NCBI GenBank assembly: GCA_007136585.1
Contig: SLGR01000130.1
Span: forward strand, 1-6,699
Reading direction: 5' to 3'
Length of the DNA stretch: 6,699 nucleotides
Origin: Candidatus Sumerlaeota bacterium
GTDB taxonomy: Bacteria; CG03; SLGR01
How positions within the stretch are numbered: position 1 is the first letter of the stretch; every line of letters begins with the position of its first letter. The notes beneath the pieces are model-generated. The model had not been told where the DNA came from and did no database searches. It saw only the letters and a list, made by a program, of their open reading frames with translations. The translations under genes were made by a program, and so were the position numbers. Shown here piece after piece: positions 1 through 6,699 of the stretch.

Positions 1-126
1 AAAAACCTTAAAAAACCGGTAAGGGAAAAACCCGTTAACCTCAGGATAACCCCGCGGGCGGAAGATGATGAAGATGCGATGATGGTTGATGAGAGAGAGC
101 CCGTGGAGATGCATGTGCCCCTTGAG
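1..126 (+). other. Charged leader segment before the topoisomerase domain
   Basis: Residues 1-42 are rich in Lys and Arg at first and then in Asp and Glu, with a run EDDEDAMMVDE and several prolines. This looks like a flexible linker from an upstream part of the protein, not a folded domain. The two adjacent ATG codons at bases 79-84 lie in frame, but no convincing ribosome binding site stands before them and the frame is already open to the window edge. I therefore do not take them as the start, although a gene start here cannot be strictly excluded. Confidence 0.55.
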
Positions 127-3100
127 CCCACGGTGGGGCGGCTCAGGAGCTGGGGGGTCTATCGGACCCATTCGCGGAAACACCTTGAGGGTCTTCTGAG
201 CGCTCCTCTTGATATCTCGGATATCACGCTTAACGCCACGGTTGTTCCGGAAGTGTGGGAAGGGAAAACCGAGAGCGATCCTACCAAGCTCCAGGTAATC
301 TCCTGGGCGCACCCCGTTACGGGACAGAGTTCCGGCCAGTCCATAGGCGGTGTTTTCAATACCCAGGAGGATATAGCAAAGTACCTCAGGGTTGATCTTC
401 TGGGAGCGGAGGTCGGGAAACTTCTGGATGAATCTTCCGAATGGGGAACACGGGAACATTACAAGCGATATAACCCTGTATATATAAGTTACGAGAAATA
501 CCTTGGATACGTTGAGGAGGTGAAAAACAGGGTGAAGATCCTCGCGGCAAGAAGCCGTGACACAGGCCCCGGGGTCAGGGTTTACGACCTTATGAGGGAA
601 GAGGCCGCCAGGATGATACTCTCCGGGAACGCCCTTCAGCAGCAGATCGGGACGGTCTTTTACCTTATGGATACCATGCACGCCCGTATCGGAGGTGATG
701 CCAGCAATACTTCAGAGGCCGTGGGAATTACCAGATGGCAGAGGGAGCACCTTGAGTTCCGGGATGACGAAAACTGCGCCCTTTATTGGGATTTTATCGG
801 AAAATCAGGGATGCGCTGGTCCGGGGAGCGGGAGCTCTCCAACCCGGAGAAGTACCCGGACCATTCAGTTGACCGCACGAAATTTGAAAAGTATTACACA
901 GATGAGGTCAACAGAAGGGTTTACGATATACTCAAGGGCCTTGCGGAGAGAAAAAGCAGCCCCCAGGACGAGATATTTTCAGTCAGCGCGGACGATATCA
1001 ATAGTTTTCTCAAGGAGTTCGGTCCCTTTACGGCAAAGCTTACAAGGCCTTTCCTGGCCGGTATATACGCTTCCGCAGCCCTGGAGGAGATGAGTCAGCA
1101 GCTTCCCGAAGACCCGAAGACAAAAGACCTTAAGGCTGTGCTTGAGGGAGTGCAGGACAAGGAGACCGGCGAGTTTGATCCCATGGGAGTATATCCCCAG
1201 GTGGGTAAACTGCTTGGGCACAGGAGATACAACAGGAAGAAGGACCGCGTTGAGATAACCGGCGCCACAGCGCGGGCCAGTTATGTGGATCCGAAACTGA
1301 TAGTAATGTGGATGGCCGGGAAAGGGAAAGACCTTCGTTCCGCTTCAGAACTCCGCAAGAGACCGGACCTTAACCATATACTTGCCGAGAGCGGGGTTCC
1401 GGTCAAACTTCCTCCGGAAGAGGGCCGGGCTGTTAAGACAGAGTTTCTTGAAAGACTGGGGATGGAACCCGGTGAGGCCGCCGAATCCGCTTTAAGGTTA
1501 ACCGAAATAAGGGGCTTTTTAATAGAGAGATACTTATCCCCCGCTTTTCGGGATGACTCAGAATCCGCCCTTGAGTGGCTTATGCAGACCCATCCTTCCT
1601 TTGAGGATCAGCTTACAAAGGGAGGGGAGCTTATAGAAAAGATACTGCTTCTTGAGGCCCTGGGGATGAGCGCGTCTGAGATACGCGGAATGCTTTCAAA
1701 ATCAAACGACCTTACCAATACAGCTGTTAAGAAGACCGTAAGGGAGGTTTCCCGTAAAGAACTGAGCGACTCCGCCGCCGAGGGGCTTGAGCGTCTTGAA
1801 AAGAAAAACTTCGCTCTCTGGCTGAAGCTTACAAATAACGGCAGGTACCTTGGCAGGGATATACCGGATGAGGAGATAGAGAAGGCTATGGGGTTGAGCC
1901 GCTCCCTGAGGGCCGAGAGGATAAGCAGGGCTCTTGAGGCCGGCGCAGTTACGGGTACTGCCGCTGCCGCGGCTGACAGGGTTGTAAACCCGGAGAAATC
2001 CAGTGAAAGGCCGGAGGCTGAAGAAGAGAGAAGTATTACGGAGGACGCGGTCTCAGCTGCCGGCGCCGCTTCCGAAACCGTTCCCGGAGCCCTTATAGCA
2101 AGGCTTGCTTCTGTCCTGACCCGTATAGCCGCTGATAAGGCCGCTGCCGCAAAATCTGAGGTTGAGGAGCCTGCGGTTGAAGAGCCCGCGGCTGAAGCAA
2201 CTGCTGATAAGGCCGAACCTGAGGAAATAAGAGGGTATGTTTCGGATATGCTTAAGGATATAGTTCCCGAAGAGCTCAGGGGTTCTCCCGAGCTTGCCTA
2301 CCATATGGCATACATTCTTCTTCCCGGGGCGCGCTCATTGTTTCCGGCCAACCCGGATAAAGAGGTCTTAAACGCAGTTATTGAGAGTATCTCCGGGTTC
2401 TCCATAGAAGCCTACAGGGAGCTTCTCAGGCAGGACCTCTCCGGAGTGACTTTTACCCCGTCACTGATAACTGACCTTACCCGGAATGTGGAGGGTTACG
2501 TTTACTCCCTTGAAGGGGAGACCCGCTCCGAAACCCTTGAGGCCGCCGTACTCTTTCTCCGGACCCTTAAGGAAAAATATTATTACCGTATGATACCGGA
2601 AGCGGGAGGCGAGGGGGCCCTGGATAGGATGAAAGAGGATTTTGAGGGGGCGGGAGAAGAGACCCTTGAGAGGGAGGTTCTTTCAGAGCTTATAAAGAAA
2701 TGGCAGGAGATACTTGACTGGGGCGGGGAGATATCGGGGCTTGATTCGGAGACCGAACCGTACTTTTACCAGCTTGAGGGAGCGAGGTTCATGCTTGATA
2801 ACCTCCGCGCCCTGAACGCCGACGAAATGGGTACGGGAAAGACCCTCCAGTCCCTGATGGTCAAGGCAAACGCCCGCGATGATATTTGGGATACCCTGGT
2901 TGTTGTGCCCGATATAGCCAAGTCCGTATGGGGAGATCAGGTCTTTGAGCACCTTTCGGAAGAGTTTGACGTATATGTGCTCGGGGCCAGGGAGTACGAT
3001 GAGCCTGTAAAGGATATAAAGAGCATAAGCTCAAAAGAAGCGGTGAAAGAGTTCCTCCTTGACTGGATAGCAATACAGCGCGGAGAGAAGGAAAAACCCG

Positions 3101-6100
3101 AAAAAAGAAGGATTGTTATAGTAAACTACGACCAGCTGAGGCTCTACAGTGACGATCAGGACGGATACCTGTTTGCAAATCTTACCCCGGATTTTCTCGT
3201 TGCTGACGAAGCCGACGCCGTGAAGAACCCCGCTGCCCAGAGGTCCGAGGCTTTCAGGGGGATAAACTCAAAGTATATGGCCCTTCTTACAGGGACCCCC
3301 GTTTCAAATAAACCGCAGGAGATACTCTCCTACCTTGAGATGCTAATACTTCCCGGATCCCCCCTGGAAGAGAGGGTTTTTGAAGGTACGATATTCAGCA
3401 GCGTTGAGGATATGAAGACGAAGATGCAGAGGAACTGGGATAACCCCGGGTACCTTATGGAACTCAACAGAGTCGTGAACCGGGTAATGATAAGAAGAAG
3501 GAAGGAGAACGTCCTGGCGGACCTTCCGGAGGTGCGCAGGTCCAGGGTTCTTCTTGATCCCCGGAAAGGGACGATGAGTATCGGGGATAGCGTAAAACAC
3601 CTCGGAGATTTCAGCGCCCAGTACGATCTCTTCCGTAGCATATCCGAAGACGAGAGCGCCGGGGAAGCAAACAGATGGGCGATGAAAAGAGCCGTTTCCG
3701 ACGACCCGGCCAGGGTACCCGGTGGAGAAGAGATAAACTCTATAAAAACCGCTGCCACGGACGAGCTTGTAGAGGAGAATATCTCAGACGGAGGCAGTAT
3801 AGCGGTATTTACATATTACAAATCGGATGCTCGCCGGTTGAGAGAGAGGTACAGGAAAAAATACGGGGCCGACGCGGTTGCTTACGTTGAGGGGGGTATG
3901 TCGGCCTCGGAGAAGCGTAGGGAATGGATGGGCAGGTTCCAGGAAGGGCCCGCCCGGATATTCATCGCCACACTGGACTCCTCCGCCTATGCGATACACC
4001 TTACGAAGGCCGACAGTATGGTTATTACTTCACTTCCCACGAACCCTGATAAACTCAGCCAGGCCGAGGCAAGGATCTCCCGCATAGACAGGGTATTCAA
4101 CCAGCCCGGGCAGACCAAGAACCTCTACACGCTTATATGGGATACGGAAGACTCGGTTGACCGCCATATAGAGGAGCTTCTATATAAAAAGACCCTTGCG
4201 ATGGAGCTGGCTATGGGCGGGCTTACCGTGGAGTTTGATGATAAACCCCTCTCCAGCCTGGATAAACTCGCAGCGGAAGAGGAAAAGATGCTCAGGCAGG
4301 AGGAGGCCGAGATAGAGGAGGAGATAGTATACGGGGACCTTACCCGGCAGGATCTTAAGGTGCTGAACCTGGGGGATGTTAACTGGAATACCCTTGCCGC
4401 CCATATGCGCCGGATAAGGGAAAGCGCTTATGAGAGGGAGTTCATTGAGCTCAGAAAAGCAAATTTTGAAGAAGAGGCCGATTCGCGATTCATAGCCCTC
4501 AACTACGGAGACAGGACCATCGCCTATGCTTACGCCGTGCCGATTGAGAATATTCCGGGTATGGTCTCCGAACCCGCGTACGGGCGCGGAGATACCCTCT
4601 TTATAGCCGAAGAAGCCTCCCATATGAAACTCAAGGAGAGCGACCGGCAGCTTACCGGATCTCTGCTCCGCGAGAAACTTAGGAGGTTTGCCCTGAAAAG
4701 GGATTACAGCTATATAGCCTGGGTGGACAGGGACGGGAACTTCGTTTCAGAGGAGGTATCCCCGGAAGCTCCCCCGTCGGACGGGGGTGTTACAGATTCG
4801 GTTTACGGTCGCTGGTCTTCGGATGACGGTGAAGTAAAGTACGACCGGGTCACACTGAAAAAGAAAGGAAGCAGAAGGCCCGGGCAGACCGAAAGCCAGG
4901 AGGAATCAAGGTTAATGAACATAGCCCGCGATCATGCGCTGCACAGGGGTATGGGCCCCCGCGGCAGGGAGGGTCTTGAGCGCCGGGGCGCCTCCTTTGC
5001 GAAATTCTCAAAGAGCTCATATCAATGGCTCAGAAAGGCCGGTATCTCCGCGGCGATAGTAACGGGGGCCTACCCGTGGGACGAGACCCGTGAGGTTATG
5101 GAGCTCATTCTGATAGATACCGGGGATCAGGGGCACGCCCCTCCCCGCGATATAACCGAGGGCGACCTGGAAGGGATAGGAAAAGAGTTTCTGGACAGCT
5201 ACCGCAGAGGGTTTATAAAAGGCAAAGTTGTAGGGAAGCAGTGGCTGGACAGGTCGGTATCCCCTCTCCGGGACGAGATGCTCGTTGATATAATGCTTAA
5301 CGGGTTTCCCCTCTGGGGCACCTACTACAATGATCCGAAGAATATAAGGGCTTTATCCAGGAAGAATATCTGGAAATACGCCGCCGCTCTTACGGCCGGC
5401 GGAAGGTATCTACAGGGTGTCAGGGTTCTGGGTCTCCTTGGTCCCCGGTTTGCCAGGACCGCGGCCGGGATGGAGACCCTTGCCGGGAGCCTTCCCCGGG
5501 AGCGTCTCTCCGAGATAGCCCACGAGAACCTCCGGCGGGGACTGGCCGAGGTCCTTAAGACGGAACCGGATCTTTACTCTATATCGGAAATATCACCCTT
5601 GGAACCTCTGGCAGGCGGGCTCATAAGGGGAAGTAAATTTGCTCTTTTCGGGCGGGTCCTGGGCAGAAGGATAAGCTCAGAGAGCGAGATAACAGTTGAT
5701 ACTCTGGATGAACTTCTCTCCGAATCTCTTGAACTTCCGTATGATAGGGAGTTTTACCAGTCCTCTCTTGAGAAGGCCCTGAAAGATACCGAACATCTTC
5801 AGAAAGCTTCAGTAGGTGAATATACAAAATGGGGCCAGACCGTTGACGGGACCGATATAAAAGTAAAGTTTGAGGTTACCAATATACCCGGGCTCATAGA
5901 GAACGGGAGCCATTACTGCCTTGCCCTTACAGCACGCGACAGTGAGAACGAGGCTCCCGGGGAGAAGGCCTACAGGATAGTGCTTAACTCAGCGGTCTTT
6001 GAGGTAGGATCGGGTATGCTTACGGACGTTCTGTCCAGCGAGCTCATACGAATAGACGGAATAGTGCGGGCCAGAGAGGATGACGAGATTGAAGAGAAGA

Positions 6101-6699
6101 TAAGGGAGTTCTGGGAAGAGAAAGAGGAGATACAGAAAAAGAAGGGCGGAAGGCCTGCCGTAAAAGGGCATTCGCGTAACGAGAAGTATTTTGAGATACT
6201 TGAGGAATACGGCGCGGGTGTGCGTATCCTTCCGCGGAGCGGGTTTGAGAATATGGAACTGGCCCGGGCGTCCCAGGGCGTAAGTAACTACGTCAGGAGG
6301 AAGCACTTCCACAGGATAGTAAAGGAAAAGTACCTGGAGAAGGACCAGGTCAGACCGGTCCTGGTGGGGTACGCAAAAGGCGCCGAGGATAACGCGAGGT
6401 TTGCCTGCGAGGTTATCGCGGGTAACAGCGTAGAATCGGTATTCAGCCGTCAGCCTCTCTCTCTCCCCGCTCTTGCCTGGGAGCTTGAGAACGGCGAATA
6501 CGCCATGGGGATGTACCTGGAAGAAGACGGGAGCGTGCGCATACTGGGCCCCCGCGGCGATATTCTGTCAGACAGTATCTATAACGAGATTCAGAGCCTT
6601 TCCGGGATGACCGCCGAGATGAGGATAATGGATTTTGAGTCGGCAAGAAAATCCCGCAGAGTAAGGACCCGGGATTGGCTGAACTCCGCGTATTTCCGT
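1..6699 (+). CDS. Giant multidomain protein with type IB topoisomerase and Snf2 ATPase domains (partial at both ends)
   Basis: Frame 1 is open for all 2,233 codons and runs off both edges, so neither start nor stop can be placed. The translation is coherent throughout: hydrophobic and charged residues alternate as in folded domains, and codon preference (ATA, AGG, CTT, GAG) is the same from end to end. In order I recognise a type IB topoisomerase (about residues 43-445), a Snf2 ATPase (about 919-1415), a probable GNAT-like fold (1463-1580), two weak decayed-enzyme candidates (1636-1716 and 1938-2025) and a basic, possibly DNA-binding tail. I see no signal peptide or convincing membrane helix. 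Only three cysteines occur (C259, C1973, C2136). The domain mix resembles polyvalent proteins of phages and conjugative elements; a giant gene of an Omnitrophota-like bacterium is the main alternative. The single-gene call is very secure. The overall role, DNA processing during or after genome transfer, is inference. Confidence 0.95.
127..1335 (+). other. Type IB DNA topoisomerase domain, catalytic residues intact
   Basis: Type IB topoisomerases nick one strand through a 3'-phosphotyrosine link, let the duplex swivel, and reseal it without ATP. The five family catalytic residues can be placed: R229 in MHARIGG (family LxLRxGN), K268 in FIGKSG (family F.GK.S), R349 in FTAKLTRPF (family TAK.fRT), H407 in LGHRR and the nucleophile Y428 in ASYVDP. 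The last motif continues as PKLIVMW, close to the LDPRITVAW that follows the active tyrosine in eukaryotic topoisomerase I. An N-terminal part (about 43-200, with LQVISWAHPVTG) resembles the DNA-clamp region before the core, especially the SW-containing strand of the eukaryotic type. The gap from His to Tyr is only 21 residues, so the long coiled-coil linker of the human enzyme is absent. Domain edges are approximate. I judge it active from the residues, not from any test. Confidence 0.88.
1336..1920 (+). other. Unrecognised helical region between topoisomerase and linker
   Basis: Residues 446-640 are mostly amphipathic helix-forming sequence with short breaks, for example after LPPEEG, near SPAFRDD and near KSNDL. 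A short motif, LGMEPGEAAESALRL, is loosely echoed by LGMSASEIRGML, and again by MGLSRSLRAERISRAL near the end. Each has a small hydrophobic-Gly-Met/Leu turn followed by a helix, as small helical-bundle or helix-turn-helix units often do. I do not recognise a family. It may pack on the C-terminal side of the topoisomerase or act as a spacer bundle. Confidence 0.4.
1921..2229 (+). other. Ala/Glu-rich low-complexity linker
   Basis: Residues 641-743 are dominated by Ala, Glu, Ser and Pro (AAAAADR, EAEEERS, AADKAAAAK, EEPAVEEPAAEA), with no aromatic residue apart from those at the far edge. This is a typical flexible tether between independently folding parts, here separating the topoisomerase half from the Snf2 half. 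A central stretch, VPGALIARLASVLTRIA, could be a short amphipathic helix. It has too many polar and charged residues for a membrane span. Confidence 0.7.
2161..2190 (+). repeat. 15-bp in-frame tandem repeat encoding VEEPA twice
   Basis: Two copies of a five-codon unit stand head to tail. They encode VEEPA-VEEPA and differ only by two synonymous third-base changes (GAG/GAA and CCT/CCC). A partial continuation, AEATADKAEPEE, follows, and the peptide ADKA occurs both shortly before (residues 711-714) and after (735-738) the repeat. Such units expand and shrink by slippage and are common in flexible linkers. Confidence 0.75.
2230..2754 (+). other. Unrecognised helical region before the Snf2 ATPase
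   Basis: Residues 744-918 form a largely helical region with the aromatic cluster KEKYYYRM at about 858-864, and it ends in WQEILDWGGEIS just before the Snf2 Q-motif-like sequence. The well-spaced hydrophobic residues suggest a folded domain, not a linker. I cannot name a family. Its position fits an accessory or regulatory domain that packs on the first ATPase lobe, as N-terminal extensions do in many Snf2 proteins, but that is inference. Confidence 0.4.
2755..3540 (+). other. Snf2-family ATPase, first RecA-like lobe
   Basis: This lobe binds and hydrolyses ATP to drive translocation along duplex DNA. The motifs appear in order and with normal spacing: YFYQLEGARFML (residues 921-932, the Q-motif-like region), Walker A DEMGTGKT (941-948, with K947 as the phosphate-binding lysine), motif Ia LVVVPDIAKSVW, VIVNYDQL (about 1039-1046), DEAD (1069-1072) followed by AVKNP, and LTGTP (1096-1100) followed by VSNKPQEILSYLEML. 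The lobe closes with MIRRRKENVLADLP (about 1163-1175), the family's RR-K-LP signature. DEMGxGKT and the xKNP that follows the DEAD box mark Snf2 rather than ordinary DEAD-box helicases. Snf2 proteins usually translocate without unwinding. Confidence 0.93.
3541..4245 (+). other. Snf2-family ATPase, second (helicase C) lobe with modified motif VI
   Basis: The second lobe completes the ATP site. After a connecting stretch (residues 1181-1260), SIAVFTYYKSDARRLRERY (about 1266-1284) matches the usual first strand and helix. VEGGMSASEKRREWMGRFQ (about 1296-1314) matches the segment where this family has 'G..s...R...i..F'. Motif V is IFIATLDSSAYAIHLTKAD, where the usual GxNL is AIHL. Motif VI is QAEARISRI, giving arginine fingers R1358 and R1361. 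In most Snf2 proteins RxHRxGQ follows directly; here seven extra residues (1363-1369) come before GQTKNLYTLI. The end, TEDSVDRHIEELLYKKTLA, matches the closing helix. The lobe looks competent for ATP hydrolysis, with local divergence. Confidence 0.9.
4246..4386 (+). other. Glu-rich helical connector after the Snf2 lobe
   Basis: Residues 1416-1462 include LAAEEEKMLRQEEAEIEEE, a highly charged single helix or short coiled coil, followed by VYGDLTRQDLKVLNLGDVNW. It probably acts as a rigid spacer leading into the next domain. I see no catalytic motif. Confidence 0.55.
4387..4740 (+). other. Probable GNAT acetyltransferase-like domain
   Basis: GNAT enzymes move an acetyl group from acetyl-CoA to an amine. 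Residues 1463-1580 follow the usual order of elements. Two helices (about 1464-1490) come first. Then SRFIALNYGDRTIAYAYAV (1495-1513) gives the two strands joined by a turn, where the family has 'v.e.dg.ivGy'. GDTLFIAEE (1530-1538) matches the strand before the acetyl-CoA loop. QLTGSL (1550-1555) stands where the pyrophosphate-binding Q/R-x-x-G-x-G/A motif is expected and leads into the helix LREKLRRFALKR, and YSYIAWV (1569-1575) gives the next strand. The loop lacks the second glycine of the consensus, so acetyl-CoA binding may be weak or lost. The call rests on pattern order only. Confidence 0.45.
4741..4905 (+). other. Hydrophilic interdomain linker
   Basis: Residues 1581-1635 contain SPEAPPSDGGVTDS, a short strand-like YDRVTLKKKG and the polar run SRRPGQTESQEES. 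Proline, glycine and polar residues dominate, as expected for a flexible link. YGRWSSDDGEVKYDRVTL could be a small beta hairpin that extends the preceding domain. Confidence 0.5.
4906..5148 (+). other. Weak transglutaminase-like (papain-fold) segment lacking the catalytic Cys and His
   Basis: Residues 1636-1716 contain FAKFSKSSYQWLRKAGISAA followed by IVTGAY, then VMELILIDTGDQGHAPP. The pattern resembles transglutaminase-like domains: a helix starting at the catalytic Cys, the phrase 'LLr..Gi.a.iv.G', then a strand that carries the His and a strand with the catalytic Asp. Here the Cys position is Ala, Lys or Ser (about 1667-1670), no His occurs in the ETREVMEL stretch, and only D1706 would remain. 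If the fold call is right, the domain is catalytically dead and may serve binding. The resemblance is short, and an unrelated fold is quite possible. Confidence 0.22.
5149..5811 (+). other. Unrecognised region with mixed helices and a Gly/Arg-rich stretch
   Basis: Residues 1717-1937 carry no motif I recognise. A basic part (LDSYRRGFIKGKVVGKQWLDRS, about 1731-1752) is followed by an aromatic-rich turn (GFPLWGTYYNDPKN, 1768-1781). A helical part then runs through AAALTAGGRYLQGVRVLGLLGPRF (about 1794-1817), and the hydrophobic-basic stretch LAGGLIRGSKFALFGRVLGRR (about 1870-1890) comes near the end. The last two are moderately hydrophobic but contain several Arg and Lys, so I do not call them membrane segments. 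The repeated basic residues would suit contact with nucleic acid or with acidic partners. Confidence 0.35.
5812..6075 (+). other. Possible inactive zincin metallopeptidase-like segment
   Basis: Residues 1938-2025 show strands (DIKVKFEVTNI, YCLALTARD), then the edge-strand-like YRIVLNSAVF (1991-2000), then a helix, MLTDVLSSELIRIDG (2006-2020). In zincin peptidases a strand of this type precedes the active-site helix with HExxH. Here the matching five residues, 2013-2017, read SELIR: the Glu is present but both zinc-binding histidines are replaced. It may therefore be a pseudo-peptidase used for binding. Zincin-type modules are common in polyvalent proteins, which makes the reading plausible, but the evidence is one helix and its flanking strand. 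Confidence 0.25.
6076..6360 (+). other. Acidic helix, AT-hook-like basic motif and possible helix-turn-helix
   Basis: An acidic helix (EDDEIEEKIREFWEEKEEIQ, 2026-2045) runs into KKKGGRPAVKG (2046-2056). Its core GGRP with flanking lysines resembles the RGRP core of AT-hooks, which bind the minor groove of AT-rich DNA, but the first Arg of the core is Gly. Next come YFEILEEYGAGVRIL and MELARASQGVSNYVRRKHF (2085-2103). In the latter, 'LARxSxGVSxxVRR' looks like the two helices of a helix-turn-helix. Both readings are short-motif resemblances, though a DNA-binding role would suit the topoisomerase and Snf2 domains upstream. Confidence 0.3.
6361..6699 (+). other. Unrecognised C-terminal segment, cut by the window edge
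   Basis: Residues 2121-2233 begin with the strand-like RPVLVGYAKG and continue as FACEVIAG, SLPALAWELENGEYAMGMYL and GSVRILGPRGDIL, alternating beta strands and turns. A helical end, SIYNEIQSLSGMTAEMRIMDF, leads to the basic stretch SARKSRRVRTRDW. This looks like the start of a small alpha/beta or beta-rich domain that continues beyond the window. I do not recognise the family, and the frame is still open at the last base. Confidence 0.4.

Follow-up and report, generated by a model that had tools for sequence, protein, structure and literature searches.

A type IB topoisomerase core and a Snf2 ATPase in one open frame of a giant gene from an uncultured bacterium

Giant genes have already been described from Omnitrophota, Elusimicrobia and CG03 (PMC10066038; West-Roberts 2023 as cited in PMC12057145), and their products have been interpreted as surface proteins that serve adhesion or degrade walls (PMC10066038; PMC12057145). 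The giants of uncultured bacteria are mostly taken to be weapons or adhesins of the cell surface in which few domains are known; neither a topoisomerase nor Snf2 is mentioned in the main text of PMC10066038. Two other described systems resemble the protein reported here: reverse gyrase, in which a motor and a topoisomerase share one chain, and the polyvalent proteins of phages and conjugative elements (PMC5512222), which likewise combine several enzymes, a Snf2 unit among them, in one very large chain. A type IB topoisomerase and a Snf2 unit on one chain were not found in the open-licence literature (preprints excluded), in agreement with an earlier note on this DNA, which knew of no described equivalent.

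The stretch of DNA analyzed (6,699 nucleotides, hereafter the window) is the entire contig (C189) of a metagenome-assembled genome, G000 (1.88 Mb, 257 contigs, 88% complete). Frame +1 is open over bases 1–6699: 2,233 codons with zero stops, open at both ends, the chance of so long an open frame at the window's base composition being ~3e-46. The gene is therefore truncated at both ends, and what the window shows is most likely a part from the interior of a longer gene. The earlier note had placed the feature at 127–4245; both domains do lie in that uninterrupted frame, but its extent was drawn too small, for the frame continues far beyond base 4245 to the window end and spans the whole contig. 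The gene could in principle start at the ATG of base 79, with only 78 bases of upstream sequence visible. Other G000 contigs were checked for a continuation of the gene, and their ends showed no overlap. Codon usage is uniform throughout the window and resembles that of the other giant genes of G000: four parts of the window correlate at 0.87–0.96 with the giant gene on contig C24.

Residues 197–371 (589–1113, + strand) match the type IB topoisomerase catalytic core, PF01028, at E 3.8e-17 (62.9 bits against a Pfam cut-off of 23.7). As the earlier note had read from the motifs, all five catalytic residues are present, and each has a counterpart in a homologous giant protein of a second genome, G003 (described below). 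The first arginine, R229 (685–687), aligns with stand-alone topoisomerases and with G003 R2797; the lysine, K268 (802–804), lies in FIGKSGM (G003 K2834); the second arginine, R349 (1045–1047), lies in TAKLTR (G003 R2890); the histidine, H407 (1219–1221), lies in LLGHRR (G003 H3114 in RLGHLRR); and the nucleophilic tyrosine, Y428 (1282–1284), lies in ARASYVDPK (G003 Y3134 in ARQNYVDPR). All five codons are on the + strand. From the alignment we take the TAKxxR context of the second arginine to be that of a type IB topoisomerase and not of a tyrosine recombinase. A profile of the window and G003 searched against the PDB returned solved type IB enzymes at the top, the best being the archaeal 6z01 (E 5.8e-18), followed by the human, vaccinia and Deinococcus topoisomerases.

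An N-terminal DNA-clamp domain was not detectable (window 34–200 against two bacterial homologues gave Z 1.1–1.4), and an AF2 model of residues 34–500, built on a 3-sequence alignment, reached a pLDDT of 41.5, too poor for fold use; for both reasons the fold assignment rests on sequence. Since two genera at 35–44% identity have both retained the five residues, the topoisomerase is probably active. Its distribution is narrow: PF01028 occurs in two of 16 genomes of the phylum, both times in giant frames (the window's and that of G003), and in none of 44 genomes of a second phylum that holds such giants. The remaining 11 matches among 386 genomes lie in frames of 322–688 aa.

About 475 residues past the topoisomerase, as the earlier note had reported, the same frame encodes a Snf2 ATPase. 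The whole unit (residues 827–1486; 2479–4458, + strand) resembles phage helicases (phrog_62, E 5e-66). Its N-terminal ATPase lobe (residues 923–1188; 2767–3564, +) matches PF00176 at E 2e-27 and its C-terminal lobe (residues 1254–1362; 3760–4086, +), with motif VI in QAEARISRIDR, matches PF00271 (Helicase_C) at E 3e-9. These two RecA-like lobes carry motifs I, II, III and VI of the Snf2 family (Walker K947, DEAD 1069–1072, TGTP 1097–1100 and Q1354/R1358/R1361), and both families, topoisomerase and Snf2, stand well above their Pfam cut-offs. In both G000 and G003 the sole PF00176 match of the genome is the one in the topoisomerase frame. Identity with the defence-system proteins ZorD, DpdE or DrmD was considered from PADLOC matches and rejected, the matches being confined to the shared Snf2 lobes. 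The linker (residues 463–844; 1387–2532, +) has no detectable family and no detectable homology to G003. The C-terminal stretch (4291–6699, +) has no known family either; its residues 1744–1793 match G003 7970–8020, collinear with the other segments.

G003 (JAFGSA01, 'Elusimicrobia bacterium isolate Zod_Metabat.862') is an independently assembled metagenome-assembled genome of the same order as G000; the two belong to a small phylum whose members NCBI files as 'Elusimicrobia'. Its homologous giant is one 9,931-aa frame, running off its own contig, in which the segments follow the window's order: topoisomerase (2756–2912), the segment with the catalytic histidine and tyrosine (3089–3169), Snf2 (from 6361) and the further match at 7970–8020. 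The topoisomerase cores are 44% identical (Z 25), and the other segments align at Z 7.4 (histidine–tyrosine), 21.7 (Snf2) and 6 (C-terminal). Two genera, at about 30–44% identity, thus retain the topoisomerase–Snf2 pair in the same order, with all five topoisomerase catalytic residues in both. The evidence reaches this far: one frame, both domains, all catalytic residues and the same ordered pair in a second genome. Because G003 has the same domains in the same order in one frame, the one-chain pairing is probably real and ancestral rather than an assembly join. A chimera or contaminant contig might be suspected in a genome of 257 contigs, one of which is the whole window, but the presence of the same ordered pair in an independent assembly, together with codon usage that is even and like that of the other giants of the genome, makes this explanation very improbable. 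An initial scan of genome contigs with the whole window as query gave no match.

The two proteins also differ. The topoisomerase–Snf2 gap is about 475 residues in the window against about 3,450 in G003, whose giant has additional HhH, HD and GyrA C-terminal domains: HhH motifs are inserted ahead of the catalytic histidine, and HhH and a GyrA-type propeller (the GyrA C-terminal domain) lie between topoisomerase and Snf2. Compared with proteins of GyrA size (about 840 aa) from the same phylum, of which G000 and G003 have one as well, this propeller shows about 33% identity. The G003 Snf2 lacks the second arginine of motif VI, so that constraint to keep the motor active is not evident. Because the gap differs and a propeller intervenes, the chain is best viewed either as a long tether strung with DNA-handling modules or as a chance collection of domains.

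These differences bear directly on the suggestion of the earlier note that the pair works in the manner of reverse gyrase, with Snf2 making supercoils while tracking and the topoisomerase removing them. Snf2/Rad54 motors do track on duplex DNA and make torsion, and both modules are complete in the window. Against such a type IB counterpart of reverse gyrase stand the spacing, which is not conserved between the window and G003 (where HhH and GyrA domains intervene), and the loss of an arginine finger from the G003 Snf2 while its topoisomerase kept all five residues. Furthermore, type IB topoisomerases relax both signs of supercoil, so that directionality would need an extra device, and none was seen. 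We consider torsional coupling improbable.

Its 2,233 codons, in a frame that runs out of the contig on either side, place the window's gene among the giant frames. Its product is most likely one of the giants of this order, with an N-terminal tether assumed from one relative, G003. The N-terminus of the G003 protein consists of a signal-like helix, a 500-residue domain without a Pfam match and a hydrophobic hairpin near 800–842. An AF2 model of this domain (pLDDT 80) gave structural matches to ChaN (Z 9.7), HopBA1 (9.0) and EreC (8.8), and Foldseek with the same model gave no match at E 0.001. We assign the domain an EreA/ChaN-like fold with moderate confidence, the group having been seen by VIA-align 2 only, at Z 8–10 among other matches of like Z. 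The hairpin has basic residues on both flanks, which is at odds with an exported N-terminal domain; an assignment of membrane topology from hydrophobic segments gave contradictory signals and was dropped. This N-terminal layout is common to a family of giants, of which the domain is the hallmark: several contigs of G000, G001 and G003 have giant frames headed by it, and it occurs in 18 of the 386 sampled genomes, mostly in giant frames of up to 24,620 aa. The longest (L093, G242:C22) comes from a different phylum. A 'Clostridia' metagenome-assembled genome (L069; JAUVLC010000008.1, 9935–21598) likewise encodes this N-terminal domain, in a frame of at least 3,888 aa, an occurrence that reflects either mislabelling or transfer.

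Taken together, these data favor, as the likeliest reading and with somewhat better than even confidence, a tethered multi-enzyme giant that acts on DNA, a reading that partly overlaps with its rivals. Such a protein would begin with the signal-like helix, the EreA/ChaN-like domain and the hydrophobic hairpin, followed by enzyme domains spaced over thousands of residues. The topoisomerase core would nick one strand through Y428, allow the duplex to turn and reseal the nick; the Snf2 unit would bind double-stranded DNA and track along it with ATP; and the shared chain would hold the two at the same DNA. The site of action would probably be the membrane, provided that the tether exists in the window's protein too. 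We infer that the window's gene has such an N-terminal tether, that both enzymes are active and that both meet the same DNA.

The contents of the sibling giants suggest another view, in which giants collect cellular enzyme domains and the topoisomerase and Snf2 share a chain without a joint task. Paralogous giants of these genomes carry adenylate kinase, GH130, DUF4922, ASCH, metallophosphatase, FHA, PRTase, GH94, GT1, CMP kinase and CofD domains. Because sibling giants carry such unrelated enzymes, the window's gene does not have to be concerned with DNA. The affinity of the G003 propeller to GyrA-sized proteins of its own phylum, the unconserved spacing and the damaged motif VI all agree with hoarding of this kind. 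Yet the order of the pair and the five topoisomerase residues have been kept across two genera, and the HhH and GyrA C-terminal domains of the G003 giant give it a DNA-topology theme. Hoarding is accordingly a real but doubtful alternative to the tethered, DNA-acting giant. A stronger version of the DNA-acting reading would have type IB topoisomerase, HhH, GyrA-type wrapping propeller and Snf2 act jointly on chromosomal DNA as a membrane-tethered, single-chain DNA-topology machine; we think this unlikely, and equally so that the window and G003 genes are the first two members of such a machine.

Several further giants were observed in the two genomes. The giant on G000:C24 (L049, 4147–15042) contains the N-terminal domain, GH130, adenylate kinase, a GyrA C-terminal domain and ASCH; over about 680 residues it runs collinear with the topoisomerase giant of G003, with which it shares most, and it may represent the 5′ portion of the gene seen in the window. 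In G003 the whole 60.7-kb contig C45 (L044–L047) is one 20,244-aa frame, open at both ends, with matches to CMP kinase, CofD and HhH and some 19 hydrophobic segments. Contig C25 (L042, L043) holds two giant frames, one of 11,860 aa (GH94, GT1, M48) and one of 13,409 aa, the second near 70–72 kb (L186).

The earlier note had also raised a role in preparing incoming DNA, which would suit a polyvalent protein of a phage or plasmid that enters the host cell alongside that DNA. The Snf2 unit is indeed closest to phage helicases (phrog_62 and viral loci). Scans of viral sequences queried with the topoisomerase part gave no match, and the phage records that match the window do so over the Snf2 part, the topoisomerase part being found in none. 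A 485-kb uncultured phage (L177, 3353–4879) does encode a 508-aa protein related to type IB topoisomerases, whose N-terminal third resembles, by eye, a HAD-type domain; this relationship counts in favor of a polyvalent origin. Against it, the metallopeptidase, ArdC, methylase and LPD families were not found by Pfam in the window or the G003 giant, and viral contigs yielded no match to the N-terminal hallmark domain. The G003 gene lies among carbohydrate-enzyme-like and transporter-like genes, and no phage-like neighbors were seen beside it by eye. The evidence thus speaks against a role in incoming DNA, and a polyvalent protein seems to us a little less probable even than torsional coupling.

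How, then, does the tethered, DNA-acting giant compare with described systems? Stand-alone type IB topoisomerases (archaeal 6z01, human 1k4t, vaccinia, Deinococcus 2f4q) have the same catalytic core and the same R, K, R, H and Y as the window; their bacterial representatives, however, occupy frames of 322–688 aa, whereas the window's core lies in a giant frame in which no N-terminal clamp was detectable. The phrog_62 phage helicases and the SsoRad54-like Snf2 (1z63) share lobes and motifs with the window, phrog_62 spanning residues 827–1486, but the likeness to phage proteins stops at the Snf2 part. Reverse gyrase differs in its type IA topoisomerase, its latch and its cooperating neighboring domains, none of which is present in the window's protein; nor are motor and topoisomerase adjacent, at about 475 (window) or 3,450 (G003) residues. 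Polyvalent proteins carry metallopeptidase, methylase, ArdC and LPD domains (PMC5512222), to which the window and the G003 giant have no Pfam match, and they are encoded by phages or conjugative elements, whereas no phage or conjugation context was seen at the G003 gene. With the known giants it shares single frames that run to many thousand codons, the origin in uncultured bacteria, the presence of several giants per genome, transmembrane segments and the scarcity of recognized domains. Those giants are read as surface proteins, whereas the recognizable domains of the window act on DNA. The complete topoisomerase set and Snf2, with the HhH and gyrase-wrapping domains of G003, suggest that some giants, at least, work on nucleic acid, and residues 34–1490 offer a short, expressible segment for in vitro tests of what a giant protein does. 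As a giant protein the window's product looks to be of a known kind; as a domain architecture it looks new.
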